Below, piece after piece: positions 13,246-63,310 of a stretch of DNA of 64,000 nt. The notes beneath the pieces were generated by a model. The model saw nothing but the letters and a program-made list of their open reading frames with translations. It did no database searches and was not told the DNA's origin. The position numbers and the translations under genes were made by a program. Where the stretch lies: positions 20,460,001 to 20,524,000 of the forward strand of contig OU452201.1 in NCBI GenBank assembly GCA_911728435.2, written 5' to 3'. Numbering within the stretch: the first letter of the stretch is position 1; each line of letters begins with the position of its first letter. The stretch is from Apoderus coryli (Eukaryota > Arthropoda > Insecta > Coleoptera > Attelabidae).

Positions 13246-13910
13246 TTTTTTAAAATCTACTAAAAAGACTAACAAATAAAAGTATTTATCAACTTGTACA
13301 ATATACATATCACTTACAGAGCATAAGGAAAATCTATGTATCCACATCTAAACAACTAAACTTAGCAGTTCAAGAAACCACACACCTAATAAAGACCATT
13401 CTCCACAAGTAAATGATTCACTTTAACTTTAAAACACCTTGAGTCCAACTTGTTCAGTGAAGATGGAAGTTTATTATGTAGATTCAGGTTCAATGAGTTT
13501 CTAAACGATTTTGCAAGCCTGAAATATGGCACTCTGAGCTACCTAGCGCTTCTAGTTTGACAGTCGTTAACGTCACCCATCGTCCCTAAATAAATAAATA
13601 AATAAACCCGCTCCCGAAAGAACTCTCACAGCTCTCACATCAACTTTGGGTCAGATCTCAGAAACGATGGCCAAAAAAATTTCTTGAGTACGCCACTGAA
13701 ATCTACGTAAAAATGTCTATCAAATGCAATGTTCACCTTTTTTCTATCTTATACAGGGCGTGATATATTATAACACCCTAAAAGGATATTTTAATAATGT
13801 ATTTTTCTTGAACCTTGTTACAGTTTTTTTATTCTTTTCCTTTCTTGGGATTAAGGTTCTTATAAGCAATTTTTTTTTCCTTTTGAAATATGTTTATTTC
13901 ATGTCAAAGT

Positions 13911-13950
13911 ACGTACAACGTTTCGGCTTATTCGCCTTCCTCAGGTACAT
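13911..13950 (-). ncRNA. Hammerhead ribozyme-like motif (type I, minimal stem III)
   Basis: On the minus strand the conserved core is complete: CTGAGGA (13944-13938), a stem II of GGC and GCC around a 6-nt loop, then GAAAC (13924-13920) followed by GTT, so the predicted cut is after 13917. Stem I is six pairs between 13945-13950 and 13911-13916. Stem III would be only two pairs with no loop (ACGT), the reduced form described for hammerheads of Penelope-like elements, thought to work as dimers. The cleavage nucleotide here is U rather than the usual C. The downstream sequence shares blocks with the motif at 28.4 kb. The structure was found by eye and no activity is known. Confidence 0.6.
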
Positions 13951-14039
13951 CTCGTTTCTTACCAAGATCGCATGATTCTGTGGGATTTTTGGTAGTATAC
14001 CACTTTTAGTGGGTATTTTTGATTAAAAAGATTTCGCCC

Positions 14040-28395: not shown

Positions 28396-28447
28396 CATAA
28401 TAAACGACGTTTCGTTACTAATTAGTAACTTCCTCAGGTTGAATAAC
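28396..28447 (-). ncRNA. Hammerhead ribozyme-like motif (type I, minimal stem III)
   Basis: On the minus strand: CTGAGGA (28437-28431), a stem II of GTTACT/AGTAAC closing an AATT loop, GAAAC (28413-28409) and GTC, with the predicted cut between 28406 and 28405. Stem II shares no sequence with those of the copies at 13.9 and 57.1 kb yet pairs fully, which is covariation support for structure. Stem I starts with three pairs (AAC/GTT) and continues with internal mismatches. Stem III is the two-pair, loop-less ACGT form. About 80-90 bases past the cut, TTATAAGAACC and a CCAAGAAA block match the 13.9-kb copy, so the two belong to one repeat family. Confidence 0.6.
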
Positions 28448-39006: not shown

Positions 39007-39690
39007 TCAGCTATTATTTTGCCACTCTTCTCTATCTTGAGCCATTTGTATCCAATTACTACAGATTCTTTTGATGTCATCGGTCCATCGTGTGGGGGGG
39101 CGCCCTCTACTACGATAAGCTTCGTGCCTCGGGCGCCACTCCAATAGTTTTTTAGACCATCTTCCGTCAGTTCTTCTAGCTACGTGGCCGGCCCAGTTCC
39201 ACTTTAAAGTTGTTATTTTTTCGATTACATCTATAACACCTGTTCTTTGGCGAATAATCTCGTTTGGTATTCGGTCTCTGAGGGAAACACCCAGAATAGC
39301 CCTCTCCATCGCCCGTTGGGTGACACGCAGTTTCTTTGCTGACTTTTTTGTAAGCGTCAATGTTTCGGCTCCGTATGTCATCACTGGTAATACGCACTGA
39401 TTGTATACTTTTCGTTTTAGACTGATGGGAATATCCGACTTGAAAACATACTTTAATCTTCCAAAAGATGTCCACCCCAAGCCTACTCTCCGGAGAAGTT
39501 CGCACGTCTGGTTGTCCCGTCCTATTCGGATCTCATGACCCAAATATTTGTAGGCGGTGACCTGTTCAATAGATTTGCTTCCAACAGTTATGTTTTCACT
39601 GGGGACTAGGTTTGTCATGACTTGCGTCTTTGCAAAGTTAATTCTTAGGCCAACTTCCCTTGAATCATTGTATAATTTTTCCAACATCAT
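39007..39690 (-). pseudogene. RTE reverse transcriptase, C-terminal part
   Basis: This 227-residue frame continues the RT after a frameshift: the first residues correspond to the region just past the catalytic aspartates. It then runs through RINFAKTQVMTN (the helix after the active site), YKYLGHEI (the Y-YLG motif of RTs), RRVGLGWTSFGRL, YNQCVLPVMTYGAETLTLTK, RAILGVSLRDRIPNE, TTLKWNWAGHVARR and WRPRHE-RSRGRPPTRWTDDIKR, the conserved tail of this LINE family. It ends at a TGA that merges into the microsatellite tail. It lacks the catalytic core, which lies in the preceding frame. Confidence 0.9.
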
Positions 39691-39701
39691 GGACGCTTGA
39701 T

Positions 39702-40841
39702 CTATACGGTGATAACGACGATATCGTCTGCAAATCTTAAGTTATTTAATCTTTCACCGTCTATATTTAGGCCCATTTCCCCCCATTCGATTTTCTTACA
39801 GGCATATTCGAGCAGTGTGGTGAACAGCTTTGGAGAGAGGGTATCTCCTTGACGTACACCTTGTTCTATTCGGAATGTTCTTGTGTTTTTATGTAATCTT
39901 ACACACGCCGTTGCTTTCTCATATATACCCTTAATCAGTGCAATGTACCTGTAATCAATTCTGCAGTCTGTTAATGATTTGAGCATATGTTGTTGGCTGA
40001 TTGAGTCAAAAGCTTTTTCATAGTCTACGAAAACAAGGATGAGAGGTTTATTATATTCTGTTGATTTTTCTATAAGGGTCTTGATTGTATCTAAATGGTC
40101 ATTTGTACCGTACCCTGCTCGAAATCCTGCCTGTTCTTTCGGCTGGTAAAAATCTAATTTTGGAGTTAGGCGTTTAGCAATGATCTTCATAAATAGTTTA
40201 TACAAGTGAGATAGGAGACTAATGGGTCTGTAATTTGCTAGATTACCAATGTTCCCCTTCTTGTGCATTATTACTATAGTGGCGTTGTTCCACTTTGAAG
40301 GTGTCACTCCTTGATGTAGACATTCATTAAATAATTTACATAGGGCTTTAATAACTATGTGTCCACCTTCCTTTACTGCCTCTATAACAATTTCGTCTTC
40401 TCCTGGTGACTTATTATTCTTCAACTCAGACACCGCCTTTCTTACTTCACAGTAGGTTATGTCTGGTACATCTTCAGAGCCCTGGTTCAGTATTCTTGGG
40501 ATAGGTACCTCTTCTTCATCTGGTTTTCTATAAAGTTCTTCATAGAAGTCTTCGACAATTTTTACAATTTCATCCTTGTTGGTAGTCACTTGCCCTGCCT
40601 TATTTTCTAGTTTGCAGATGTTGTGTTTTCCCACTTTTAAATTTCTACGTAAAACTTTAAGACTCTTGTTGTTTTCAATCACTGTATTTATTTTCTCTGT
40701 ATTAAATTTTCTGGTACCTTTTCTCATAGCCTTTGATATTTCTTTATTTAGTTGTCTTAGTTCCTCGTTGTTTGTGGTGTATTTGTTCTTTAGTTCTCTT
40801 CTTTTCGTTAGTAGCTGTTTTGTGCCTCTAGACAGTTTTTC
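39702..40841 (-). pseudogene. RTE reverse transcriptase, central part
   Basis: The frame encodes the RT core: KNNKSPGEDEIVIEA (K-PG-D), the WNNATIVIMHKKGN and NYRPISLLSHLYKLFMKI segment, KEQAGFRAGYGTNDHL, LILVFVDYEKAFDS (first catalytic Asp), GVRQGDTLSPKLFT and finally RFADDIVVIT, whose DD pair is the active site. It stops just after FADD, where a frameshift moves the rest into the frame starting at 39690. On its N-terminal side the frame is closed by a stop at about 40842, about 30 bases from the end of the endonuclease frame. All catalytic residues are visible, so only the frameshifts make it dead. Confidence 0.9.
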
Positions 40842-40872
40842 TTATTTTTCTCTTCTCTTTGGTTCATATCTT

Positions 40873-41475
40873 TTACGTGTCTCTTGCAACGTCGGTTCCC
40901 AGATTTTCAATACCGTCTAAGTCATGTTTTAGAGCCTCTCTGTATTCATCGGAGTTATCTATGGGATTCCATCCTAGGTTTCGTACTTTCGATAACAGCT
41001 TAGATCTTTCTCTCTTTATATTGATTTCTATTATTGCTCTTACCATTCTGTGATCACTACCAATTGAGATACTATTAAGAACCTGGACGTCATGCACTAT
41101 ATGCTTGTTATCCGAGACGATGTAATCTATCTCGTTCTTGGTAGTACCGTCTGGGCTTGCCCAAGTCCATTTTCTATTTGGCTTTTTCTTGAAAAAGGAG
41201 TTCATCGCAAATAGGTTGTGCTGCAATAAGTAGTCTAAAAGCATAGTTCCTCTATCGTTTCTGTTACCGAATCCAAACGACCCCATCGCTGTTTCGTTGT
41301 CGTCTGCCTTATGTCCTAATTTGGCATTGAAATCACCGATAATAAAAGTAAAGTGCGTGCGAACCTTTTCTATTGCTTTGGTGATGTCTTCATAAAAGTT
41401 CTCTATTTCGTCTTCACTATGCGTGGATGTTGGAGCAAAGACTTGTATTATTTTAAGACTGTATCGATCGTTCAA
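40873..41475 (-). pseudogene. RTE apurinic-like endonuclease, N-terminally truncated
   Basis: The frame gives about 200 residues of the exonuclease-endonuclease-phosphatase fold that nicks target DNA. Visible are FIIGDFNAKLG (the GDFN catalytic motif), NEIDYIVSDN (the IDY motif) and SIGSDHRMVRAII (the SDH catalytic end). The N-terminal third with its N and E catalytic motifs is missing, because the insertion was truncated at 41478, three bases before the frame. The frame has no ATG at its start; the first codon is TTG. It ends about 30 bases before the RT frame opens. Confidence 0.9.
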
Positions 41476-46638: not shown

Positions 46639-46885
46639 AATTATCTCACAACGCCGAGGATCTTTGTTTTTAAAAACTTTATTTTATTTAAAAATTACAA
46701 TTTAAGTTTCAAAATTATATCTTATACATTCAAAAGCTTCTTTCTGACTGACTGTCCTAAGTGAAAAATAGTATTAAGCAAAGTAATGAAAAAATGACTA
46801 CATAAACAATTATTAACTTATGCGAGATAAACAATATTTATCATATACATTTCATATACTTCATATGAAGATTAATTATATAATT
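46639..46885 (-). repeat. 3' LTR of the errantivirus
   Basis: The 247-bp repeat begins AATTAT and ends ATAATT, a perfect 6-bp terminal inverted repeat. I could find no difference from the LTR at 53895-54141. On the minus strand it contains a TCAGTCAG block that fits the arthropod initiator and an AATAAA poly(A) signal near its end. The env stop codon lies 8-10 bases inside it. Confidence 0.95.
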
Positions 46886-48562
46886 CCTCCCCTCGAAGAT
46901 TCAGCGAAGGAGGGTAACTGAGGTAGCTGAACATCTAACTCCTGGGGTGGTTGCGACTTGATTCGTTTGGGTCGAAGTTTCTTGTAGCACATATATAAAA
47001 CTCCGATGGTGGCGGATATGTAGATTAGAATTGTCCATACACTTGGATATTTGATGACCTTTTGAAACGTTAAATCGGCTTCATTGTTCAGAAATTGGGT
47101 TTTGATATCTTGAAGTTCATCGAGTTTAACTTCTTTTAGAGTTAAGCTCAGGTTAGGTTGAGGTGTGAACTTTACATCAACGTCTAACTCGGGAAACATA
47201 ATTGCTTGATTTTTCGTTGTTTGTTGTTTGTTTGTAATTGTCCATTCATTGACTGATAATTGACAATCAATAGGAACATCGAACAGATGAGTTCCAATCA
47301 TTTTAACAATTTCTTCTTGTTCATTACATTTTAATTTGATTGATTGAGTTGATGGAATTAACGTGATCCATAAATTGGCTTCTAGTTGCTTAAGGGTAGG
47401 CTTAGTGATAACAATTGATGTTTGTTGGCATGTGGAGGTGTTCTTTGAATTTAACAACTGGATTTCGCAAGGGTTGGCTTCGCTGGAAATCTCGCTCAAA
47501 TTTATATTGTCGCAAATGAAGAGTTTGGGTTGCATCTTCTTACAGGGGGTACCCATAAATGCGTAGTACAACTGATTTATTATTAAATATTTGTTTTGAG
47601 GTATAATAGCCTTAAACTGACCCTTCGAAAATATTGGAATTGAAAACAAATGATACATTTCGAAATTAGATGGAAACATTAAAGGAATATGTAAAATATA
47701 AGTTATTCTGTTATTAAATATATAGCTGTCGATTTTAATTATTTGTTCAATTACAGGGGTATTTTGTAAAGTTAATTCGACTGGAAATTGTTCTTCTTTA
47801 AAATGTTTTTGTAAAATAAGTAATTCTTGATAAAGATCCGAAGTTTTGATTATACTAGGATGCATAATTTGAAGTCTTGCAAATAGAATGGAATTTTCGA
47901 TATCCTGCAGAATTGAATTGATTATTTCATACATATTTATTATTTGATTTAGAACTTCTTTCATATACATAGAATTTTCTTTATAATGTTGCCTTTGTAC
48001 ATAACTTGCAAATTCTTTCACTTTCTTTTCCAATAGCTCTTCGTTATGATTTATTTGGTGAATAGTATTATTGAATTTTTCTATGAGAGTAATTGCTAAA
48101 GATCCTTGCTTATTTAATTTTGAAGATAATTCTTTTTGATTTTCTTGTAACTGTTTTATTAAACTTTCGTATCGTTCTGCATCATAGGCATCTAAGTTTC
48201 CTGTGATGGCTTTAAAGATTGAACCTATTCCATTAATAAGACCTCTTTTTGTTCGAGTTCTTTCTTGAGGAATAATTTCATTAATTTTTGTCTCCACTTT
48301 TTCTTCTATAAATCTTAAAACTTTATAATAATTTGAAACATCAGAATAATAGTCACCATGTGTATTAATTATTTTAATTATTGAATGAGTTTGAGATTTG
48401 AGTTTTTCAACTTGTTCGACTATCGGTGATAAATCGTAATAATGTATTAAAGTGTGCGAATATTCTTCTACTTTTGTCGTTCCTAATTTCAGTGGTATAA
48501 GTCCAGTATTTTTATCCAAGTTTCGTACAGTTATTTTTGTCTGTCCCAAAATCAGGGGCAAT
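46876..48562 (-). CDS. Errantiviral envelope fusion protein (Env)
   Basis: This 561-codon frame encodes an F-like (baculovirus F protein type) insect retroviral envelope. Residues 103-106 are RTKR, a furin site, followed by a Gly/Ile/Phe-rich segment like a fusion peptide. Long heptad-like helices occupy about residues 125-260. Cys residues cluster around 340-440, and one membrane span lies at about 505-525 with a ~35-residue basic/Pro-rich tail. It starts just after the pol stop, in the same frame, with no ATG near its beginning (first in-frame ATG about 200 codons in). A splice acceptor TTTTCAG ends at 48563, so translation must begin on a spliced leader (see 53578-53606). The stop codon falls inside the 3' LTR. 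No break seen. Confidence 0.92.
46886..46894 (-). promoter_or_regulatory. Polypurine tract
   Basis: GAGGGGAGG directly abuts the 3' LTR on the coding strand, the usual primer for plus-strand synthesis. It also encodes the last residues of Env. Confidence 0.85.
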
Positions 48563-48564
48563 CT
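48563..48564 (-). promoter_or_regulatory. Predicted env splice acceptor
   Basis: The AG of TTTTCAG lies a few codons after the pol stop, so the env exon begins at 48562. A pyrimidine-rich stretch precedes it. Its phase matches the donor at 53577. Confidence 0.7.
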
Positions 48565-48585
48565 GAAAAGTTCAAATTGTTTACT

Positions 48586-51500
48586 TTAATTTTTATTAGG
48601 AAATTTATATGTATGCTTTAAAGGGCGTTTTAAATTATCCATGTGGATTTTTTCTCTATTTTCAGTAGACACAGTTTTATTTTGTTCATTTGCATCAGTT
48701 AAGGTAGTAGATTTACTAAATTTATTCGCATTCTTTTGTCTTATATGTTTTTTAATATGAACTGTTTGTTGAGGTTGAAAGATACCGGGGTGGTCTCTAT
48801 CTTTGTTTAGATTTTCAATAAGTTTTTCTTTATTGTGCATAAGATCGGAATTTAGTTTAGAATAAATGAGTTTAGACTTTTCTTTGTGTTCATTGATATA
48901 GTCATTAATTAGTATCTGATCGATTTCCATATCAAATGGATCATTACTAGTGATATGTCCATTGATGACATCTATTGGTTTTAATTTTGTTGTAGAATGA
49001 ATCGAATGATTATAGGCAAGAATTGCATATATCATTTTCATTTTTATATTTGTTTTTGAAAATCCCTTTGTATTTAACAAACGTATATGTTCTATAATAG
49101 TGGAATGGAATCGTTCGATAATTCCATTAGATTGAGGATGGTTAGGTGAACAAAAATGTACATTGACTTTGTGTAATTTGAAAAGTTCTTGTACTACAGT
49201 ATTCTTAAATTCAGTACCATTATCTACTGTAATATGTTTAGGAATACCGTGGTGGGTGAAAAAGGTTAATAAATTATTAACTATTTCTGTACCTGCTAAT
49301 GTGGGAATGCTATATGCTTGAGCATATTTCGAAAAACTATCTATAATTGTTAAAAACTTCGTTTGTTCTAAAGTAAATGTATCTAAATGGATTATTTGGA
49401 AAGGTTGTGTAGGAGTAGGTGTAAGGTTCATCTGGATATTTACAGGGTGTCTCTCATACTTAGATTGTTGACACACTTCACAATCATTAATAAATGTCTG
49501 TATAGATTGCTTTATGAAAGGCCAATAGTATTTGGTTTTTATTCTACTTGTTGTTTCGTCAATACCTCGGTGATTAGTCTTAACTTCATGATAATTTTTA
49601 ATAATGTCATGGATGTTGTCCTTATTTGTGACATCTATTAATTTTGAATTACATTTTTTTAATTTTATAGACGACCATTTGAAATGTTTTTGTAACGCTG
49701 CTGAAAACTTTTCATATATACCAGGTTTTTCATTTTCAAAATAAATGTAATATTGAAAGTTTGGAGATATATAATCTTTTACAAAGTTAACAACATCTTG
49801 TTCAAAATTATTTTCGGATATTTGTACATTAATTCTTTTCTTTTTCTCAAATAATATAGTAATCTTTGGTTTACTAGGTGAATGTAATACGGAAGTAATA
49901 ATTATTTGATTTTGTCCAAAATTTAAAGGATTTTCCGTAATTGGTATGTCCACTACAGGGTTTTGTTCTGCGTTTGAATGTATAGTATTGTCGTTATTAT
50001 GTATGTCATGTTCATCCTGTATATCGTTCTCTGTTTCGTCTAAGTTAACTTGTAAAGATACATTGTCGAGTTGTGGTATTTTATCAGGTAAAATTACATT
50101 TGCAACTTCGTTTATAAATTCATCTAAATTAAAACTTTCTGGGGTATTATCTGCGTTTTGAACGTTATCAGTTTCTTTAGTGTGGATTTCGACGCGCGAT
50201 AATGCATCTGCATTTGTGTTGAGTTTGCCTTTTTTATATGTAATTGTGTAATCATACTCTTCTAGTTTAATACGCCAACGCATTAACTTTGAATTTGGAT
50301 CTTTTAATGAGAATAGCCATTGTAGGGGCTTATGGTCAGTAATTATATTAAATTTCCTGCCATAAAGATATGGTCGGAAATACTTGGTGGACCAAACAAT
50401 TGCTAATAATTCCTTTTCAATTGTGGAATACTTTTTCTCAGATTCATTTAGGGTTCTGGAGGCATACGCAACGGGAAGGTCACTGCCTATAGGGCCTTGG
50501 GACAAGATGGCACCTATCGAAACATTACTAGCATCTGTTGTAAGGTTGAATGATTTGGAAAAATCTGGATATTGAAGTATCGGTTCATTAATAAGAAGAT
50601 TTTTACAGGTTTCGAAACAAGAAATATATTCATCGTTTAAATCTATTTTTGCACCTTTTTTCAAACACTTTGTTAACGGTTTTGTTATCTTTGCAAAGTT
50701 ATCGATGAATCTTCGATAATAACCTAAAAGTCCTAGGAATCCTTTTATTTGTTTTGTTGATCTAGGTATGGGGAAATTTTTTATAGCTTTAATTTTTTGA
50801 GGATCGGGTTTAACACCTTCGGGGGTTACTATATGTCCTAGATAACCTACTTCTTTTTGTAAGAATTTTGACTTGTCTATTTGAATTTTGAAATTTGAAT
50901 CGCGTAGTCTCTGAAATACTGATCTTAAGTTTTCGATATGTTCTTGTAAGGAAGTCGAGAAAATTATTATGTCGTCAAGATATACCAGACATTTTTCATT
51001 CTGAATACCACGTAGTATATTGTCCATTGCTCTTTGGAAGGTTGCGGGGGCATTTTTCAGTCCAAAGGGCATTCGCAGAAATTCATAGTGTCCATGTTCT
51101 GTATTAAAAGCTGTTTTTTCAATGTCCTTGTCATTCATCTCGATCTGGTGAAATCCGCTGGCTAGGTCCAAAATGGTAAAATATTGACATTTTCCGAGTT
51201 TATCCAGTAAGTCAGTTATGTTTGGTAGAGGATAACGGTCATCTATAGTTTTAGCGTTGAGTTTCCTATAGTCAACGACAACTCGCCACTTTTGCTTGCC
51301 ACTGGCATCGATCTTCTTTGGGACTACCCAAATGGGAGAGCTCCAGGGTGAAACACTAGGTTTAATAATTTTTTGATCTAGCATTTTTTTAATTTGATTT
51401 TGTACCTCTTTCTTATGAACAAAAGGATACCTATACGATTTTGTGTAAGCTGGTATTTCATCCGTTGTTTTTATATTATGTTTTATTTTACTTGTAAAAG

Positions 51501-52326
51501 TTAAGGGTTCATTTTCGTTATAAAATATATCAGCAAATTCTCTGCAAATATTAATTATTTTTGCTTTTTCCTCTTCGTTTAAATTATCGATACAAATTTT
51601 AGAAATGTCTAATTTATGTTTTTTACTATCATCAAAATTGTTAAAATTAAATTTTTCAATATTTTTCCTATCAAAATTTTCTACTTCAAAAGTATTTGAT
51701 AGATCTAAGGTTATATCATCAGAGTTACTGTTTAAAATACTTGTTAGAGCATAGCCATTTGAAGATATTGTTAAACTTTCTGGAATTTCGCAATTTTGAA
51801 TTTTTTGATAAGGTACTATAATTTCTCCATTATTAATTGATGTTTTAATTTTTATAATTTGTTCGTGTCTTCCAGGTATAGTAATCACATTATTATTGTC
51901 AACCTCATTTTTTGTTTTATGAAATAAAAGTTTTATTTTGGTATAAGGTGTGATCAAAAATCCTTTCTCGAAATTAAGAGTTGATTGTAATATTTTCAGA
52001 TTGTCTAATCCTATCAATCCGTTAAAAGTATCATGAAATTTAAAAACATAAAATTTCAAATTTGTCAATCTAGGTAGTTTAAAAATTTTCGAAGATGGCA
52101 TTAAAATACTATATTTATGTGTAGATTGTTGAAAAACAGTTGATACACTAAATGGATCATTTTGTATTAATTTTGGAAAAATTTTAAATGCTATATCAGG
52201 ATCAATAAAAGATTTTGTTGACCCAGAATCGATTAATAATTTTAAGTTATGCTCAGGTAAAATTATATAAGGCAATTCGTTTGAATTTGTTGTATTAAGA
52301 GATATAATTTCGGTGTCTATGTCGGG
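48586..52326 (-). CDS. Errantiviral Pol polyprotein
   Basis: Pol is read after a -1 slip from gag. Numbered from the TTG codon at 52275 (1229 residues to the stop), domains are: aspartic protease with LLIDSGSTKS (active-site DSG, about 16-18); reverse transcriptase (about 280-480) with FTILDLASGFHQI and the YLDD active site near 433; RNase H (about 575-695) with LTTDASN, EKELLAIV and TDHKPL; and a spacer of about 220 residues. The integrase has an HHCC zinc site (H-x4-H ... CEVCQ, about 920-965) and a D,D,E core (LDTF, DNGTEF, NGIIERFHS). All catalytic residues are present and there is no stop, so it looks functional. It ends 24 bases before the env exon, in the same frame. Confidence 0.95.
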   Translation of the reverse strand, partial: PDIDTEIISLNTTNSNELPYIILPEHNLKLLIDSGSTKSFIDPDIAFKIFPKLIQNDPFSVSTVFQQSTHKYSILMPSSKIFKLPRLTNLKFYVFKFHDTFNGLIGLDNLKILQSTLNFEKGFLITPYTKIKLLFHKTKNEVDNNNVITIPGRHEQIIKIKTSINNGEIIVPYQKIQNCEIPESLTISSNGYALTSILNSNSDDITLDLSNTFEVENFDRKNIEKFNFNNFDDSKKHKLDISKICIDNLNEEEKAKIINICREFADIFYNENEPLTFTSKIKHNIKTTDEIPAYTKSYRYPFVHKKEVQNQIKKMLDQKIIKPSVSPWSSPIWVVPKKIDASGKQKWRVVVDYRKLNAKTIDDRYPLPNITDLLDKLGKCQYFTILDLASGFHQIEMNDKDIEKTAFNTEHGHYEFLRMPFGLKNAPATFQRAMDNILRGIQNEKCLVYLDDIIIFSTSLQEHIENLRSVFQRLRDSNFKIQIDKSKFLQKEVGYLGHIVTPEGVKPDPQKIKAIKNFPIPRSTKQIKGFLGLLGYYRRFIDNFAKITKPLTKCLKKGAKIDLNDEYISCFETCKNLLINEPILQYPDFSKSFNLTTDASNVSIGAILSQGPIGSDLPVAYASRTLNESEKKYSTIEKELLAIVWSTKYFRPYLYGRKFNIITDHKPLQWLFSLKDPNSKLMRWRIKLEEYDYTITYKKGKLNTNADALSRVEIHTKETDNVQNADNTPESFNLDEFINEVANVILPDKIPQLDNVSLQVNLDETENDIQDEHDIHNNDNTIHSNAEQNPVVDIPITENPLNFGQNQIIITSVLHSPSKPKITILFEKKKRINVQISENNFEQDVVNFVKDYISPNFQYYIYFENEKPGIYEKFSAALQKHFKWSSIKLKKCNSKLIDVTNKDNIHDIIKNYHEVKTNHRGIDETTSRIKTKYYWPFIKQSIQTFINDCEVCQQSKYERHPVNIQMNLTPTPTQPFQIIHLDTFTLEQTKFLTIIDSFSKYAQAYSIPTLAGTEIVNNLLTFFTHHGIPKHITVDNGTEFKNTVVQELFKLHKVNVHFCSPNHPQSNGIIERFHSTIIEHIRLLNTKGFSKTNIKMKMIYAILAYNHSIHSTTKLKPIDVINGHITSNDPFDMEIDQILINDYINEHKEKSKLIYSKLNSDLMHNKEKLIENLNKDRDHPGIFQPQQTVHIKKHIRQKNANKFSKSTTLTDANEQNKTVSTENREKIHMDNLKRPLKHTYKFPNKN

Positions 52327-53564
52327 TTTAAATTCAGAGGCGTTTCCTGAAAATTTTCATTTTCAGTTTCAGATGGATTTTCCTCATCAGTAATAATACA
52401 TGTATTTTCGGTTGGTTGCTGTTGATAATCATATTGACAGTCACCATAATTATTTTCATAGGTAGAATTATCGTAATTTTCAGTTTCATTTTCAATACAG
52501 TTTTCATCTGATATGAAATGGAAGTTATTGTGATGTTGGCCAGAAGTTGAAGGTCCAAATCTGTTTGAAACGCTCATGGGTGTGGGTCCTGCTGAATGTC
52601 TTGTTTGAACACTCATTGGTGTAGGTTTTGGTAAATTAATATTTGGATTGGGTTTAAAAACGTTTTGATTATGTTGCTGGTTTGGTTTTTGAAGATTTTG
52701 ATTATTGTTTACAAATCTATTTGGTTGATTAAACTGATTGTATCTTTGTTGGGGATGTGAAAATTGTCTAAAATGATTATTAAATCCGTTAGATTGGGGT
52801 TGGAAATTATTTGGTATGGGTTTAGGAAGTGCATTCTGGAATTTTTGTGGTGGATTTGGTTTGAGAAAAGTTTTATTTTGAAAATTTTGAAAATATTGTA
52901 TATTATCTTCTTCCGTAACATATTGTAAAGCTTCAGTTAAAGTTCCAGGCTTCATGCAACGAATAGTGGTACCTAGAGGTTCCCTAAGTCCTGCTATAAA
53001 AGTTTTTAATGCTAAGCTATTATATAGTCCTCGTTTAAGAGTTCTAGCTTCTTGGGTTTCTTCATGTATATCTACATAACTACAGAGTAAATTTAATATG
53101 TTTAAACATCTATCGTAAAATGTTTGTGGTTTTTCATTAGGCATTTGCCTAAGCATTACGAGGTCCCTATTAAGACAAGCTTCGTCACGTTGGTCGGCAA
53201 AGTTCCTATATAAAACATTTTTTAATTCCAACCAGGTTTTTACATCCTGTATATTAACAACTAGTTTAGCATTACCTTGTAATTTTGAAATTAAAGAATT
53301 CAACAAATAAATATTTAAAAAGCTATTTGGATTTGCTCTATCCGCAAAAGCATTTATTAGTGATTCACAAATATTTAAAAATCTATTCAATTCATTCGGA
53401 TTTCCATCGAATGTAGGTATACAGTTAAGGTATTCTGGTTTAAATGTTTGTGCCATTTCTGTTTCTTGGATATTGGCTGTATTATTATTTAAATTATTTT
53501 GAGAATTTTCTGAGTCAGTTTGAGAGCTTATATTTTCAGTTTTTACGTTATATGTATTAAGCAT
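52317..53564 (-). CDS. Errantiviral Gag
   Basis: This 415-residue frame starts with a true ATG 13 bases after the env splice donor. Residues about 35-240 form the capsid-like region typical of gypsy Gags (FKPEYLNCIPTFDGNPNEL-RFL, then LALKTFIAGLREPLGTTIRCMKPGTL). The second half is Asn/Gln/Pro-rich with two PTPMSV repeats and an acidic tail. There is no CCHC zinc knuckle, which is common in errantiviral Gags. The last codons overlap the TTTAAAC slip site, with a TAG stop two codons after it. It should form the particle shell and package RNA. No break seen. Confidence 0.93.
   Translation of the reverse strand: MLNTYNVKTENISSQTDSENSQNNLNNNTANIQETEMAQTFKPEYLNCIPTFDGNPNELNRFLNICESLINAFADRANPNSFLNIYLLNSLISKLQGNAKLVVNIQDVKTWLELKNVLYRNFADQRDEACLNRDLVMLRQMPNEKPQTFYDRCLNILNLLCSYVDIHEETQEARTLKRGLYNSLALKTFIAGLREPLGTTIRCMKPGTLTEALQYVTEEDNIQYFQNFQNKTFLKPNPPQKFQNALPKPIPNNFQPQSNGFNNHFRQFSHPQQRYNQFNQPNRFVNNNQNLQKPNQQHNQNVFKPNPNINLPKPTPMSVQTRHSAGPTPMSVSNRFGPSTSGQHHNNFHFISDENCIENETENYDNSTYENNYGDCQYDYQQQPTENTCIITDEENPSETENENFQETPLNLNPT
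52326..52332 (-). promoter_or_regulatory. -1 ribosomal frameshift site TTTAAAC
   Basis: On the coding strand TTTAAAC stands in the gag frame as T-TTA-AAC, the classical X-XXY-YYZ heptamer, three codons before the gag TAG stop. Slipping back one base enters the pol frame exactly. No strong downstream hairpin or pseudoknot was obvious by eye. Confidence 0.85.
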
Positions 53565-54145: not shown

Positions 54146-55780
54146 AGAAGGAAAAATCTAGTAAGTGAATTTTAACGAATTTTCTGGAAATAAAACATAA
54201 GATAAAATGCTGCCGTTTTGCAAACGCATTATATTTTTTGTTGAGTAATAGTATAAGTTTTACTACTGTGTTTTTTTTAACCAAATCTTGTGTTTTGTGA
54301 GTTTTACGTACCATGCTATTTTTATTGCACTATAACTATTCGTTTTGCTGGGGAAAAACCTAACAAAATAAATTACTGAACGAAAACTCGCATTTTTGCG
54401 AACCAAAAAGTTAGTACTTGCTATTTTTTAATATTTAGTTTTACCTAAGAAATATTTGGAAAACCTACCAATTCACAGTTTTTTTTTTTGAAACTTACAG
54501 ATGATTGGTTTATTTTTTACATTGTAGTCAAAAGTTCAACTACATATACATAATATTATATGATATTAAAATATAATAAAATAACTGAACAAATCAACAT
54601 CACAAAAAATCTGAAACTATTTCAATAGAGATCACCAAGTTGGAAATATCTAGTAAAGCACTTTACTCTCGGATATAAAAATAGTGAAGTAGGATACAAG
54701 AAAATTCCAATTTAAAGTAGACCACATAAAACATATCAACATTAAAAAACATTAACACAGTATGAATCATTGATGTGCTTTACCTCTATAAAATGAACAA
54801 AAAATTACATAGAAAAGAAATTGTGCTAGATCTTTCCATCGGAATAAATGTGGCTAGGTTTTTCTCACAAAGTATATTAAAATTTGCATTTTACTAGGAT
54901 CTTCCATCTCTAATAAATACACCGATTTTAGTATTAAAATATTGAAAAAATAAAGGACGTACAGCTCTTTCATACAACTGATGCTAAGCAAAAACATAGT
55001 ACAATAATTCTTTACTAGGTTTTCTCTCTTCAGGGTAGAAATCTACTCCTTACAATGGAGTGACAAATTCATGTGCTCTGTATCACACTAGAATTTGTCT
55101 CATGCGACGCCAGCAGCGCGGCCACCTCATGCTCTGTACGGTACAGGCTTTTGTGTTTACGCTTCTGTGACTTCGTAAATCAGTTCACATTGAATTGTTG
55201 AACAGCGAGTCTTCTCCACGTAAATTTTAAGGCAAAAAACAGCAGCTCTTACTGACTTCATTTAATTTGTTATAATGGATAAATACATGGCTTATCTTGG
55301 TTGCTTTGTTGCCAATTTGTGTGTCATTTGCGGTATGCATTAGTTGGAAGTAAATGCGTACAACGAAAGCTACTTGCGTCAAGTAATAACTTTACACAAA
55401 GGTAATATAATGGAATTTCGAACAAATTTCCTGCGTTTACCTTAATAGCGTATTTCGTTTGAAGTAACCTAGCTTCAAAAAATTGAGTTACTACGAGAAT
55501 ATAAGGATGAAATTATTTGACTGAGGGAATGAACTTCTCAATGAACCACACCGAGAGTCCCAAAAAAATATTGCCATTATGGCAGTTCAATAGCGCAGCC
55601 AAACAATACATCTAGCTTTCTGATAAAACCCTGCTAGGTATTATCAGAAAACTAGATGTATTTTTTCTATATTTATTACAGTGCCTTTATGTAGGTCCAT
55701 AAGGGCTACATGGTATACATGGTACTTCAAAAGAGTGTGAGATATCAAAGTTATGTTTATATGTTATCATATTGTTGAAT
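54146..55780. other. AT-rich spacer
   Basis: No gene recognised. A GC-richer patch at about 55080-55160 has no assigned identity. Around 55600-55660 a short inverted pair (CATCTAGTTTTCTGATAA against TTATCAGAAAACTAGATG) forms a small foldback. Confidence 0.4.
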
Positions 55781-55781
55781 T

Positions 55782-56020
55782 AATTATGAACAATAATTTT
55801 TTGGATATCTCTTGGGTTTTTGGTTCGCATTAACAAACAATGGTGAGATAATTTTTTTTTATTTCATGTCAATTTTTTTTTTCCTTTTATTTGACATGAA
55901 ATAAAAAAAATTTATCTCACCATTGTTTGTTAATGCGAACCAAAAACCCAAGAGATATCCAAAAAATTATAAATATATGGTTCAAGAGAATTAAGAGGAA
56001 AAAAAAATTATGAACAATAA
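55782..56020. mobile_element. Near-perfect 178-bp hairpin flanked by 15-bp direct repeats
   Basis: The arms 55793-55872 and 55891-55970 are reverse complements with a single mismatch in an A/T run, separated by an 18-base T-rich loop. AATTATGAACAATAA occurs on both sides (55782-55796 and 56006-56020), and an A-rich tail precedes the right copy, as in target-primed retrotransposition. The right arm shares TTTGACATGAAATAAA and a GAACC-6-CCCAAGA block with the sequence next to the hammerhead-like motif at 13.9 kb. So it looks like two head-to-head copies of that family's post-cleavage segment. Confidence 0.75.
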
Positions 56021-56091
56021 GAAAGCATTTTGTTAGGGTTCCCTACACCTAAATACCTACTGAGCGTTTAAATTAATTACTAATATTATTA

Positions 56092-56618
56092 AATGAAAAA
56101 TAATTTAATGGCAAAGCGGACTAAAATGCTGGTTTTACCTACACAAGGAATTTTGTTTAATTTAGCAGGGCCGCAGTCTAATTCAATAGAACCAGACCGA
56201 GGCATGGGTCGACAGATACTGACGAATTCGTTTCGCTATTGTTATGAGCTCGTCAGAGTACCAAAGTCGTTGTCCATCTACAAATATCACGGTTTTACTA
56301 TACATTGAGTTTGTTCGGCCTCTGCATGGTATAGGATATGCATTACTATGTACATGTAGATGACACGTGTTTACATGTGTCTACTCTTGTGTATCCTATT
56401 GTGCTTAAATGCAGGCTGATATTTGAAGATGGGCAACGACTATGGTACTCTGACGAGCTCATAACAAGAGCGAAACGAATTCGTCAGTATCTGTCGACCC
56501 ATGCCTCGGTCTGGTTCTATTGAATTAGACTGGGGCCCTGCTAAATTAAACAAAATTCCTTGTGTAGGTAAAACCAGCATTTTAGTCCGCTTTGCCGTTA
56601 AATTATTTTTCATTTATT
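56092..56618. mobile_element. 530-bp foldback element with ~185-bp arms
   Basis: The left arm (about 56092-56292) and right arm (about 56418-56618) are reverse complements at high identity. They share GGCAAAGCGGACTAAAATGC, CTGGTTTTACCTACACAAGG, CATGGGTCGACAGATACTGA and GAGCTCGTCAGAGTACC-AAGTCGTTG. The centre continues the pairing with bulges (TGCAT, TAGGATA) to a CACGTG-containing loop, so nearly the whole element can form one hairpin. Frames inside are not genes. A diverged single arm is at 63790. Target duplication not settled. Confidence 0.8.
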
Positions 56619-56890
56619 ATATTTACGGACATGAAATCCTTTTCACTAATATTATTATTAAATTGCAAGATTTTGGAGAAAGTATTTTTTACCAAACGAA
56701 ACTAATTTTGTGAAAACTACTTCTAGATCTCGGGAATAGACTGTTTATTTGAAATTATTAAAAAGTGTTGCCTTTATGGGTTGAGTGAGAATGGCCTTAG
56801 GCTAGACTTCCCCATTTAAAAATAAATGCTATTATTATTATTTATGGGCCTACACAATATCCCCCAACAAAAATTAATAAAATATATCTA

Positions 56891-57244
56891 ATAATGGTGG
56901 ATTCTTAGGGTATAAGGACTTGAAAAATGCTAACAGCTTTTATTCATTTAAGCTGGTGGTTGTTAGCAGCTCCGTTTTTTACTGTTACTTCCATAATAGT
57001 TTTTAATTTCTTGTTTTTGTCTTGTGTTTGTATATTTTTTTTTTTTAATGATTGTTGCTATAGTATGAGTAGTTCACGTCACAATCAAATGTCTAGCTTT
57101 AACCTTATTCAGAGAGCCTGAAGAAGCCAGTAAATATATGGCGAAACGTCGCTTAAATGAATAAAAGCTGTTCGCATTTTTCAAGTCCTTATACCCTAAG
57201 AATCCACCATTATTCAATATTGTTTGGACTAGAAGTTATACAAT
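56891..57244. mobile_element. 354-bp inverted-copy retroelement carrying a hammerhead motif
   Basis: The left arm (about 56891-56953) is the reverse complement of 57151 to about 57214, with one clear mismatch. The left arm ends exactly at the base matching the first nucleotide after the predicted hammerhead cut (57150/57151). Near-identical 19-20 bp sequences flank the whole (56872-56890 and 57245-57264), likely a target duplication. The 64-codon frame inside has no known motif. I interpret it as head-to-head copies of a small Penelope-like or retrozyme-like element. Confidence 0.65.
57105..57164 (+). ncRNA. Hammerhead ribozyme-like motif (type I, minimal stem III)
   Basis: The core is complete: CTGAAGA (57118-57124), stem II GCCA/TGGC (57126-57129 with 57139-57142) around a 9-base loop, GAAAC (57143-57147) and GTC, with the predicted cut after C57150. 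Stem I has four pairs next to the core (57114-57117 with 57151-57154), a small internal loop, then seven perfect pairs TTATTCA/TGAATAA (57105-57111 with 57158-57164). Stem III is a two-pair, loop-less ACGT, a reduced form known from Penelope-like elements. This is the best of the copies. Found by eye; no activity known. Confidence 0.75.
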
Positions 57245-57269
57245 AATTAATAGAAATATATCTAGTTTT

Positions 57270-60200
57270 CTCATGAAGTTCCGCGTGCCGTTCGTCCTGA
57301 CCCTGTATATTTATGTGATATCAAATTAATGTGTATATTCGATTCAAATTGGTCATGTATAAAACGTTTATTTTTTAAGTAATTACTTTGAATTCGTTAC
57401 TAGTTATTATTATTTTAATGCCCTCTAATTGGATTTTTATCTTTGTGGGCAGTAGTATCTTAAATAAATAAATAATAAATAAAATTATATAGAATTTTAA
57501 TAAATGCTTAAAAAATGCAATACTATGTTTCGATGATCGACACGCAACAATAATAGTAAGAAAATCTTGCAATCATATATCAAGGTTTGACACATTATTT
57601 TATGCACTTTTAAACCCTAGGGATTAAAAATAAAATGCTACATAATATTATGTGTTACAAGATACAAGAATACACATGATTGTGAACGGATTTTGATATA
57701 TCACCAATATAAAAATTAGACAATATCCTGCATGAAATTTTATAAATAAAGCAAGAATTCATCTTGATACATGGGTATGTCCATAATGTTGTACTTCCTT
57801 TAAATAGTTTTCCAAAGTGCATAAAATATCGTATAAACCGCGTGACTAGTGGGTTTTTATCCCTCGGCGTATTATACAACTTTTTCGCCTTGGGATAAAA
57901 CGAATGGGCCATACCTATATACTTTTAAGACGCTAGATGTTTATCAGTTCTAAAATATAAAAACACACATACAAGTCAGTACACGTGATGATATTTTTGT
58001 TTAATGAATTAGATATTTTAGTTTTATAGGAATAAATAAATAAAGAAACTGATTTTTTCGATATCAGACAAATCTGTCCCCACTATCGAAAATGCTATGC
58101 ACAAAATCAGCAAGAACAATTTTGTCAAATAAATTACTAAATGCAAAATTTTAGTTGGCAGTGAGTGTATTTTTAAAGGTATTCTAAAAGATGAAATAAC
58201 GAAATTTGCAATACTAAGCTATAATAACTCTGAACATCAACTTAGTTTTGATAACGTACGTTCAAGATCACAAAGATATCTACATAACTTGATCAAGCTT
58301 TACTATAACCACCAGACAAAAGCTCATTGACCCCAATACGTCCGTACAAGGACACCGATGTACATAAGTTATCTATCTATTCGAGATTGTAAACAAGTCT
58401 TTTAAACTCGAAAGTTATTCTACCAACTGCCTGTTTTGTCGATTCACGTCTCATTAGAGATGAAGCGACCATTTAGTGAAAGCACAGAGTTCGATAGACA
58501 AACTTTCGAGTTTTTTTCGCTATAGACAAGTCTCAAAATCAAATGAGTATTAATAATCCAAAATCTAAACGAAAATACACTATTACAGGAGTAACTAACA
58601 TACGACGCGTTTTACTATTAAAGCTCAGTAAGATATTAGATATCTACCTCTATACAAAACTAGTTTTTACGTCATATAAAATTAAAACCACAAAATCAAG
58701 GTTTAAGATTTAACTTTTAAATAATTCGACAAAGCATGTAGATATCTAAAGAAAGTTTTACCTCATATTGTAGGTGAAATAGATAAATGACATTTGACTC
58801 TGTTGATAAAGGATATAATAGAGCCATTTTTTAATTACAAAAGAAATCAAAATAAGTGATTCAATAAATTCCGTTATTTAAAAACCTTATTGAATAATTG
58901 CAGTAAAACTATAAGCATTCTTTGAATGTAGCACAAATAACTGTATTACCACTCAACATCAATCAACTTCATTTTAAAGATACTTTTGCACTTTAAATTA
59001 TAAAGAAAATTCATCAAAAGACTTTGATACTCGCGTCCCCAGTTGAAAGAAGAAGAAACTGTATTTGGCACGATCAATCAATCAGTCAAAAATACTTCCA
59101 TAATTTTTCCATCGTAAAGAAGGGTGGAGCCATATCTATAGATTCCCAGAGTATAACATGTGCATAAACACTGCTGAATAAGCGAAATTTAATTAAACTT
59201 CGTATAAATGTAATTATATTATCTTTATTTAAAATAATTATAAATAAAGTGGAAATCAGAATTAGTTAAGCTTTGTTTGTATCAGTTTGGCATGAAGTTG
59301 AGTTTATGACTTTAAAAATAAATTATTTTTTTATACTGGTTTCAATATACAGAACTTGTAATACCCTTATAAAATACTACGTACGAATATATCAAGGTTA
59401 GTGACCAATAGCAGTACTATACTTTAGTTTTATCAATAAAAAAGGAAATATCTGTTTAAGAATTGAGTAGTCGATATGTTAGAACGACTGGTCCTTATCA
59501 ACCTCATCATATGTGTTAATGCAATAAGAACGACAGGTCGTCAAGTAGTAGTAGGTCCCTTGGGCTACATTCAGTTCGTCGGTAGTTATTATTGCAATTG
59601 GCAAATAGACATAAGCAGATAGGTCTGCAATGATGCCAAAAATAGATTCTTTGGGACTTAAAATGGAATAGCGTCGCTTCTAGAGAGTTCCGTTATTATT
59701 TAGAGGTTCGTAGTGAGTACATAAGTAACGTGGAGAAAGAGAACAACTTCAATATTGGATTGATTACAAGACTGCGGTTTCTATAAGCGTTATGCTGCAG
59801 GGTGCTAGAGCTATTGATAGAGAACGTCCTATTGCTCAAAGTCATAAGGTTGCTGGCACTTAGAGACTTCGTTTGAGAATGTAACATAAAACTTGTTATA
59901 CGTCCGTGATGATTGACAAGGTGTTCTAAGTAGCGTGAGCCACTATTGCTATCCCAGAGAACGTAATAACCACGAAGTGGGTTAAATTAGGGGAAAGTTG
60001 CCGTATTAGTGGCCATTTCTGAGATACAGGTTTTATTGTAAAAAACGCTTAGGTATATCAATATTGTTAATTAATTTAAAAACCAATGATTTGAGGTTTA
60101 AACTTTTACATTTCTTACGCTCTGCAAAATGGTATCTTTAAATTTCACTTATAACGTCTCGTGCTCTAGAAACCATCAAATTAATTTTTTGAAATATGTA

Positions 60201-60600: not shown

Positions 60601-63310
60601 AAACGATTTTGTACCGAAGTAGATAAAAATCCAAGGTAAGTTCAAGCTCTAAAATTTCCTTGATAGAAGAACGGAACACTCTTCGGTCATATGCCCAGAA
60701 CCATACATGATTTCGAAGCTTGCCTAAAAAGCTGTTTAACGGGGGAAATGCTAATTGGTGTGAGTCAACCGGTACCGGGTTTCTTTTGACAGAGAAAGCT
60801 TTAGATCCATGTGAGTATGGATTAACTTTAAATTTAATGTTTTCATTCTGTTATGTTGCGCAGTTTCATCTTGTGTTTTGTGAATTCTTGAGTCAACATT
60901 ATTTGCTGTGTAGAGGATGACTTTAAAAAAGCGAAAATATCGACGACAGAGTAGATATTTGTGTTCTCTTTATGCGATCTAAAACCTTGTACTGATCATT
61001 TATTAAAGAACTATATAAATGATTCCAGAAGAAGACGAAACTTTTTTAGCCAAATCGACTGATTTTTCAATAAATAAAAACCCATTATATTCAACCTCAA
61101 TCCTAAGAGTGCGTGATAGAAAATATTTAATTATAGCTATTATATATCTAGAATTTTTTCAAAATTTCAAACAAAATTTGACGTAGTGTCAAGGATATGC
61201 TATAATAACTATTTGCTTGTTTGGGCTTTCAAAATATTAAAAAGTTATTAAATATTTGTAAAATGTTTGTCAATAAATATATATATTTTTTTCCAAATAG
61301 CAAATGCTAATTCTTGATGACAGGAAAAAGAGCAAATTTAAAATAAGGGTCGTGTTTTATGCTTAATTTACTTCCTAAATACATAACGCTGCGAGCGTAT
61401 CAACTAGCTCGTTTAGATAAGTTTTGCATGACAATCCACGAAATACACTTGAAACAAACACAATATTATTGTTAGGTAAATGTACGTATTTTGCTGCTTC
61501 CGTGTCTCTCATCTTTCTTGGGTTTAAAGATCAAATGAAAAATTAATAAACTAAATTACTTGCTTTTAAAATTATTAATTATAAAAATATTACTTTTGTT
61601 ATATTAGTGCTTTCAAAACCTAGCTGTACATTTGCCAGTTTATCACTAATCATTATTGTTGAATTTGATGAATCTACAATGTGTTTTTATTCGTACTTTA
61701 AAATAATAAAGGTTATTTATACATTTAATTTGATTTCATAATACTTTAGGCTGGCAAACTAACACTGAAAATATATGCAAAAACCTATCAATAACAGATG
61801 CTTACTACTACTACTTAGTAGTAATGTATATCTATTATAATATAGTATATATAGTTTTATGAAACCTGAAAAAAAGGCAATTCCCTCAATTTCGTCTCTC
61901 AAATTTTTACAAACTATGAACCGGTGAATGAATATCTTAAAAAAAAGGCTTGTTAAAGAAATAAGCAAAAAAAAGTCAATACCGATTTTTTTGTTTCCCT
62001 CGATAACGAATGCCAACACACGTTCTGCTATCACATATAGCGCCCGTTAATCTGATTATTTCCAAATATATCACGTGTTATAGTATTCAATACAGTCGGC
62101 ACCGACGCGTCTTTTCAGTGTATGATCAAGACACAACGTTTGCGTCACGACGCCAAGCGAAAGACTGAAAAGAGCACGTATAGACAATATTTTCATCACA
62201 GGATGCTGAGGGATGCGCGACGCTGGCGTCTATACCTACCTACCCTAAAGGGTAAAAATGATGAACTGACAGATGTAGATACACCATTTTTAGGGGATTT
62301 AAATTTTAAACAAAACTAATTATATAAGATTTACCCGGTAGAATTGTATATGGTAGAAGAAGTTGAAGTAATAGTCCGTATGAGATAGTAGTTTGGGCCT
62401 CCTTTGCACTATGATTGGAATAGCCATTTCCTAATGTTTAAGTTTTAATCCTCCCTTTCCAGTACACATACTGCATACGAGTGTGTTACTAAAAATAATT
62501 CATTAGACTTTCGATGTGTGTGGGGGCTCTGGAGATTTTGATGCAAAATGTGTCGAAACGTATTTGTTCGCAACACAAAAAATTTGATTGATTACATGCA
62601 CATAACCTCATAAAAATAAATTACCGAGAAAGAAAACTAAATTCATGACTTTTTTTAACTTTTAAAAAAATATTTCAGGTACGCCAATAGCGACCAATCA
62701 TTAAGTGATTTTCTGAATCTTAATTTCCAAAAAGAAATATTTCAAAAATATCAAAAAAACCTACCCGATTCGTCAATCAAACCGAAGCATCTCAACTCAA
62801 CCTATCCTAAACCCCCAATTAAAACAAACAATAAAATATCTCGAAAATGAAAGGAGATATCCCCCTGATCGTAATACCTTCACTCTATACTAGAATATGT
62901 TTTGACAAAACTAGTGTTTTATTAGGAATCAATGTAGCCGAAAATTCTTTATTTCAGACACCTGAAGAAGATGTTAATATTAACATCAAAACTTTTTTTT
63001 TTATTTCCGTTTCACAAAAAAATTAAAAATGTTTTATTTTTAATACATTTTTTTATCTTAATATATCAATATTCTCAAGAATAGAATAATCAACAAGTTT
63101 AAATAATTGGAAAGTTCAAGAATAGTACAAAAAAATCGGTTGCGTTACCCCAAAACTGTCTCGTAGGTTGACCTATCGATATCGCCTCAATAATAATTGA
63201 TAGTGAAGTTCATTGGGGATGCTGAACATTATAATTTAAAATATGAGATCACCTGGGTAACTAAATGTTTAAATTAAATTTAAATTAAAGTCTGCAGTCA
63301 CCCTACTACA
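60601..63310. other. Spacer with one GC-rich patch and a decayed hammerhead-like motif
   Basis: No gene recognised. At 62095-62240 a GC-richer stretch contains inverted GTCTTTTCAGT/ACTGAAAAGA; it lies partly in a 65-codon frame that I regard as chance. The hammerhead relic at 62962 is listed separately. Confidence 0.4.
62962..62992 (+). ncRNA. Decayed hammerhead ribozyme-like motif
   Basis: CTGAAGA is followed by a perfect stem II (GATGTTAAT/ATTAACATC), but the next box reads AAAAC, not GAAAC, so the essential G is lost. No clear stem I remains. An inactive member of the family at 13.9, 28.4 and 57.1 kb. Confidence 0.45.

Follow-up and report, generated by a model that had tools for sequence, protein, structure and literature searches.

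In the window, by which we mean the whole 64-kb stretch of DNA that was analysed, positions 57105–57164 are a type I hammerhead ribozyme motif. Comparison among its genomic relatives makes it very probable that this is the hammerhead of a Penelope-like element (PLE), preserved in a retrocopy of spliced RNA, and that in the parent RNA a spliceosomal intron divides stem I of the ribozyme. The order of the core elements, the presence of helices I and II and the open end at stem I are those of a type I hammerhead. The earlier note had read the core, stem II, GAAAC and GTC as following one another in hammerhead order, a reading borne out by both the sequence and the minimum-energy fold, in which the parts are as follows.

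57094–57117, plus strand: 5′ strand of stem I (57094–57099, 57105–57111 and 57114–57117; from folding)
57118–57124, plus strand: hammerhead core CTGAAGA (CUGAAGA in RNA), followed by A57125 (from sequence)
57126–57142, plus strand: stem II, GCCA 57126–57129 with TGGC 57139–57142, and its 9-nt loop (from sequence and fold)
57143–57150, plus strand: GAA 57143–57145, stem III ACGT 57146–57149 and C57150 (from sequence)
Between 57150 and 57151, plus strand: predicted cleavage site (from sequence)
57151–57170, plus strand: 3′ strand of stem I (57151–57154, 57158–57164 and 57165–57170; from folding)

The nucleotide before the predicted cleavage site, C57150, is C17 in hammerhead numbering. Stem I consists of GAGC 57114–57117 paired with GCTT 57151–57154 and TTATTCA 57105–57111 paired with TGAATAA 57158–57164, so that the enclosing stem of 4+7 bp had been described correctly, and it is lengthened by about 6 more pairs (57094–57099 with 57165–57170). 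Stem III is its own complement (ACGT, 2+2, palindromic and without a loop) and would be expected to form only when two molecules or two repeats pair; because the ACGU of stem III is loop-less, cleavage, as predicted, would need two ribozymes. The minimum-energy fold of 57090–57175 is the hammerhead at -19.0 kcal/mol, with a stem I of 4+6+7 pairs in a slightly shifted register, compared with -14.1 ± 2.7 kcal/mol for shuffled versions, 11 of 200 of which were as low.

Hammerhead cores are more frequent here than chance would give. In the window the pattern CTGANGA-N4..30-GAAAC has 9 occurrences where 0.49 would be expected, a number reached by 0 of 100 shuffles, and a descriptor requiring all stems finds 4 sites, compared with 0.05 per copy across 60 first-order Markov copies. 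Across the whole genome (428 Mb in 129 contigs), the core pattern was counted 40,756 times (20,098 + 20,658) compared with 5,217 for the reversed pattern, an excess of about 35,000. The check by covariance model that had been proposed for the motif came out differently by model: the Rfam hammerhead families gave no match at 57105–57164 at the gathering score and no hammerhead in a lax scan of 57050–57220, while a model built in this study, R2, scored 57108–57158 at 40.0 bits (E 5.8e-10). Rfam seems not to recognise this short hammerhead type, because 20 further loci of the genome, chosen by core pattern or kinship, also yielded 0 matches at gathering. R2 was trained on 17 hammerheads chosen by core pattern without requiring stems (the 23 listed hammerheads without five members of the window family and one further hammerhead), so the window family was left out. 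Among these 17, 79.4% of stem cells pair compared with 53.1% after shuffling (0/500) and the covariation score is 0.670 against 0.196 (0/500); pairs changed on both sides (7 versus 6.1 shuffled, 137/500) and further pair types (20 versus 17.4, 83/500) showed no excess. The model also finds hammerheads of other families at 28398–28447 (-), at 50.7 bits, and at 13909–13954 (-), at 42.9 bits, both strong and the latter with GUU, not GUC, at the cleavage site; these two sites have close kin in the training set, whereas the 57108 site has none.

The insertion that holds the motif measures about 340 bp and has divergent arms delimited by local alignment; the inner end of the left arm coincides exactly with the base that follows the predicted cleavage site.

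56890–56953, minus strand: left inverted arm, the reverse complement of 57151–57214 with one mismatch (local alignment)
56956–57214, plus strand: right arm, read as the spliced-RNA retrocopy, with part of exon 1 (56956–57116) and exon 2 from 57117
57116–57117, plus strand: exon–exon junction; a GT..AG intron is present here in 17 of 64 copies, and 32 of 64 are joined without it
57185–57214, plus strand: AC-rich stretch, where the arms have their 3′ end and reverse transcription putatively starts, likened to that in the available text of PMC11167929

A DNA search for the family returned at least 122 matching pieces (from the best 40 of 174 candidates), many of which end near query positions 375–386 or 405–418; the matches of other copies often end about 30–43 nt beyond the arm end at 57185–57214. 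Many matches to another family of the same genome, represented by locus L091, end at 382 or 418–422. The optional 30–40 nt 3′ tail of PLEs is thus found in the window family and in the L091 family. An inverted upstream arm accompanies 32 of the 64 distinct window-family copies described below, both members of a pair being counted, and outward arms with the same AC-rich ends fit two cDNAs made on two nicks.

The evidence supports the insertion being a short, ribozyme-bearing retrocopy of the spliced RNA of a PLE. That it belongs to a ribozyme-bearing retroelement had been proposed from the sequence alone, with PLEs and retrozymes as candidates, and is upheld. Of the two it is the PLE that is indicated, by a PLE-type GIY-YIG domain that five family loci (L072, L071, L082, L090 and L085; tblastn, two queries, E 0.01) carry upstream of their intron-bearing ribozyme region and on its strand, and by copies whose arms diverge and whose 3′ ends fall at two alternative places. 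In L085 the ribozyme is cut off within stem II, and L072 scores 22.1 bits against PF01541, just under the cut-off of 22.6. For the window family the coding sequence examined covered the GIY-YIG end. In the loci of the 32 spliced copies, over about 1.5 kb upstream, the GIY-YIG search returned only a weak match in L036 and, in L042, the second query itself, both on the strand opposite to the spliced copy. L091 carries an 829-amino acid PLE frame (RVT_1 at 40.1 bits) in which Pfam reported no GIY-YIG, while a protein search matched GIY-YIG at this locus with E 2.2e-14; 300 nt are tandemly repeated there at a spacing of 3395, the only tandem pseudo-LTR repeat seen, in addition to inverted arms, and its hammerhead (a GAAAG variant) lies before the reading frame. 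Genome-wide, the protein search gave at least 175 GIY-YIG matches (best 150 of 2088 candidates), with open frames of up to 848 codons; viral contigs yielded no PLE relative. Where an organism is named among the relatives of a PLE protein of this genome, of which at least 120 were listed, it is a beetle, which makes a beetle the probable host.

A non-autonomous retrozyme spreading via circular RNA would likewise be short and carry a type I hammerhead, and retrozyme-like repeats are reported in insects in the available part of PMC7229834. Direct repeats at 55500–58500 are, however, only 16–26 nt long, where a retrozyme would have tandem repeats of 170–400 bp; the arms of the window copy are inverted and divergent, and its relatives carry PLE coding sequence and an intron, which together make a retrozyme origin highly improbable. 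The metazoan retrozymes described in the same text resemble the window family as short elements with a type I hammerhead and differ from it in having tandem repeats and circular RNA, against inverted arms, an intron and PLE kinship here.

Many sister copies of the insertion contain 80–153 extra nucleotides exactly between the equivalents of 57116 and 57117, that is, inside stem I and one base 5′ of the catalytic core, which places the 5′ strand of stem I, except its last base, in exon 1. The extra stretch starts with GTATGT or nearly so and ends mostly in TTTTTAG. Among 64 distinct copies (those with a core start among L031–L090, the others having been dropped), 32, including the window copy, are joined without it and 17 have the end of exon 1 followed by a GT..AG intron; the rest comprise one intron with a changed 3′ site, 11 copies with the 3′ part of the intron and no exon 1, and three others. 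L071 and L078 retain hardly more of exon 1 than its end. Both GT and AG are present in 17 of the 18 copies that have the exon 1 end and the intron, and such ends together with exact removal are what would be expected of a spliceosomal intron. One copy, L043 (-), near C7:9042347, has exon 1 joined 10 nt further on with the core deleted, which may be due to alternative splicing or to DNA loss by deletion between AGCC repeats.

That the stretch is instead a later insertion into the ribozyme might be suggested by its differing length among copies. It lies at the same base in all 18 copies, starting with GT in 18 of 18 and ending with AG in 17 of 18, is present in copies carrying GIY-YIG sequence and has a similar counterpart (GTAAGT..TATAG) at the same place in the tandem PLE L091; we consider an insertion extremely improbable.

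The intron-less copies could also descend from one DNA deletion in a lineage that then multiplied, in which case the ribozyme would never have been spliced. In a tree of the exons of 50 copies (32 spliced and 18 with intron), spliced and intron-bearing copies are intermixed, with 14 state changes compared with a mean of 15.0 for shuffled labels (178 of 500 shuffles as low), and this therefore fits repeated splicing rather than one deletion. At least three state changes are forced by well-supported branches, a single origin appears in 0% of 200 bootstrap trees and the loss is found in both main branches: a supported split (100/98, 25 rows) divides a group of 14 spliced and 11 intron-bearing copies from a remainder that likewise contains both kinds. 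The window copy (L031) itself groups with the spliced L036 and the intron-bearing L068 at 100/92. With 31 of 47 inner branches open, the tree has little resolution, which leaves some room for a single deletion, as does the fact that any inserted copy could in principle act as a source; against it stand also the base-exact loss with GT..AG ends and a 5′ end common to the intron-less copies, which the intron copies mostly run past. A single deletion is, on this evidence, very unlikely, and repeated loss by splicing appears the simplest reading.

These 5′ ends suggest two kinds of RNA. Of the 32 spliced copies, 20 start within -15..+25 of GAATATCG, about 175 nt before the splice donor, 10 start later, one runs further (L036) and one is misplaced on the inverted arm; other spliced copies extend about 19–31 bases further 5′ than the window copy, to this common putative start site. 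Among the 17 copies with exon 1 and intron, 10 run further (L071 with a gap), one starts there, five start later and one is unplaced. The contrast between these two informative classes is significant (Fisher 1.8e-6); a pooled test (1.7e-8) was set aside because it counts inverted-arm matches among the intron-only copies. Because spliced copies start near one site and intron copies mostly run past it, we infer that RNA begun in the terminal repeat would be spliced, while RNA read in from upstream would mostly not be.

Splicing is predicted to matter for the fold. Spliced stem I reaches -18.0 kcal/mol, a value that just one in 500 upstream stretches drawn at random equalled (-4.3 ± 3.3 kcal/mol). 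When three intron ends are placed before the same 3′ strand, the energies are -10.5 to -15.3 kcal/mol, which still surpass the average of those stretches. Between the supposed spliced form and the intron form, stem I changes from -18.4 to -12.5 kcal/mol in L005 and from -16.1 to -11.4 in L091, while in L018 both forms are equal (-7.2 and -7.4). The minimum-energy folds of the intron-bearing L064, L070 and L061 are not hammerheads. By ensemble folding at three context lengths, the median hammerhead probability is 0.58/0.40/0.21 in 21 spliced copies, 0.012/0.0016/0.00006 in nine exon-plus-intron copies and 0.024/0.017/0.0024 in six intron-only copies, and the gap between spliced and intron-bearing copies widens with context (p from 0.0013 to 5.9e-5, values that are too small because the copies are related, hence not independent, and 25 of 61 were left out, their core or stems not being intact, so that 36 passed). 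Exceptions occur in both directions: the intron-bearing L068 (0.54) and L076 (0.58) fold well and the spliced L049 (0.00009) badly. The models thus predict a hammerhead fold that is far likelier after splicing.

Taken together, these observations would be accounted for as follows. The 5′ strand of stem I would come from exon 1, and the core, stems II and III and the cleavage site from exon 2. Transcripts starting in the element's own terminal repeat would be spliced, which would assemble the ribozyme, while longer transcripts read in from upstream would keep the intron, and in these the hammerhead is predicted to fold less often. Reverse transcription would start about 64 or 94–107 nt downstream of the cleavage site and, taking place at both nicked target strands, would yield the divergent arms. 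We tentatively suggest that splicing acts as a ribozyme switch, the spliced RNA becoming an active hammerhead that is cleaved and the intron-keeping RNA remaining whole as the template for full-length transposition, a suggestion that we ourselves regard as rather doubtful. If true, it would assign a function to PLE ribozymes and account for the retention of introns by PLEs, which sets them apart from other retroelements.

The left arm of the window copy, ending exactly at the cleavage site, was considered as a footprint of cleavage, being then the cDNA of a cleaved RNA, and such ends are not enriched among copies: 13 inner ends of inverted arms fall between -40 and +30 of the site, one of them exactly on it and two no more than 2 nt away. 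Because an even spread would place about 0.9 within 2 nt, no cleavage footprint is claimed.

The ribozyme fold might instead persist because the element's protein binds it or stops at it, with cleavage playing no part, and we think this quite possible, if short of an even chance. The absence of a pile-up of arm ends at the site agrees with it, and because the 32 spliced retrocopies run through an uncleaved site, cleavage is no precondition of reverse transcription. The available text of PMC11167929 adds, for a PLE of the anole, that ribozyme mutants left insertion in vitro unchanged and that no RNA reads ended at the site. The same text states, however, that the anole ribozyme cleaves when its own protein is added, and a role for the fold without cleavage has to contend with stems that co-vary among the 17 hammerheads outside the window family and with a loop-less palindromic stem III that has been kept and is useful only between two ribozymes.

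Hammerhead ribozymes of PLEs were reportedly described by Cervera and De la Pena (2014) and Lunse et al. (2017). The available part of PMC7761336 characterizes them as minimal type I motifs in the pseudo-LTR with a reduced stem III and proposed dimers, present in thousands of copies in many animal genomes, and calls their role in vivo a mystery. The window family has the same minimal type I form and differs in the spliceosomal intron that appears to split stem I between two exons. Spliceosomal introns in PLE pseudo-LTRs are themselves on record (Arkhipova 2003 and 2006, as cited in the accessible portion of PMC11722881), and the retention of introns is said, in what is available of PMC3846280, to be allowed by PLE transposition; here, by comparison, the intron interrupts a ribozyme and many short copies have lost it. 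The excerpts of PLE literature surveyed hold no statement of an intron dividing a hammerhead, and the novelty of the arrangement is not certain.

The anole element PAc is likewise similar. In the available text of PMC11167929, reverse transcription of its RNA is initiated internally, within an AC-rich stem loop that lies downstream of the ribozyme; both strands of the target are cut and extended, and a 3′ tail is optional. The window family has the optional tail and, putatively, the internal AC-rich start and the extension of both strands. That text, as far as it is available, mentions no intron in the ribozyme, unlike the window family, and has the PAc reading frame begin at stem II, whereas in L091 the predicted cleavage site is followed, about 113 nt on, by the first ATG of the frame. 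If the 5′ strand of a PLE ribozyme is contributed by a separate exon, this would tie the role of PLE hammerheads to the puzzle of intron retention by PLEs (available portions of PMC7761336 and PMC3846280). The proposal is testable in that splicing should turn self-cleavage on, and it would supply a natural example of the spliceosome assembling a self-cleaving RNA.

The coexistence of intron-bearing and intron-less copies is demonstrated in a single family, because a test across families was not significant and searches in L091 and L005 gave no spliced copy among the matches scored. By eye, an intron seems to end just before the core in L005, L018, L024, L022 and L091. TTTTNYAG lies 0–6 nt before the core 514 times compared with 3 for the reversed pattern, which is an unfair control for AG; a 4-bp stem II is retained in 14 of 23 sequence types picked by eye from the listed TTTTNYAG places. 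Tested crudely across families, 3′ splice sites stood before cores in 2 of 19 cases, compared with 4.8% of control windows (p 0.23). In the L091 family, the junction pattern had one match at 3 mismatches, as did its control, and no gapped (spliced) copy was found among 44 listed matches (best 40 of 282 candidates). In the L005 family all 40 long matches span the stretch (best 40 of 343 candidates, in a ranking that favours such copies).

Several hammerhead families in loci of this genome have, as judged by eye, a stem III that is palindromic, lacks a loop and measures 2 to 5 bp. A second and different hammerhead-bearing insertion lies 500 bp upstream of the first, at 56087–56619, with inverted arms of about 200 nt that each contain an outward-facing hammerhead core, at 56450 (+) and 56256 (-); its stem III is a 5-bp palindrome, ACGAATTCGT, without a loop, and it matches Rfam HH9 at 20.1 bits, below the cut-off. 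A decayed hammerhead at 62952–63003 (+), at 19.2 bits and with AAAAC for GAAAC, is directly preceded by TTTATTTCAG, which resembles a 3′ splice site. Elsewhere in the window, 46876–53564 (-) is an LTR element with gag, pol and Baculo_F envelope-like frames, and 39007–41475 (-) holds LINE-type endonuclease and reverse transcriptase frames.
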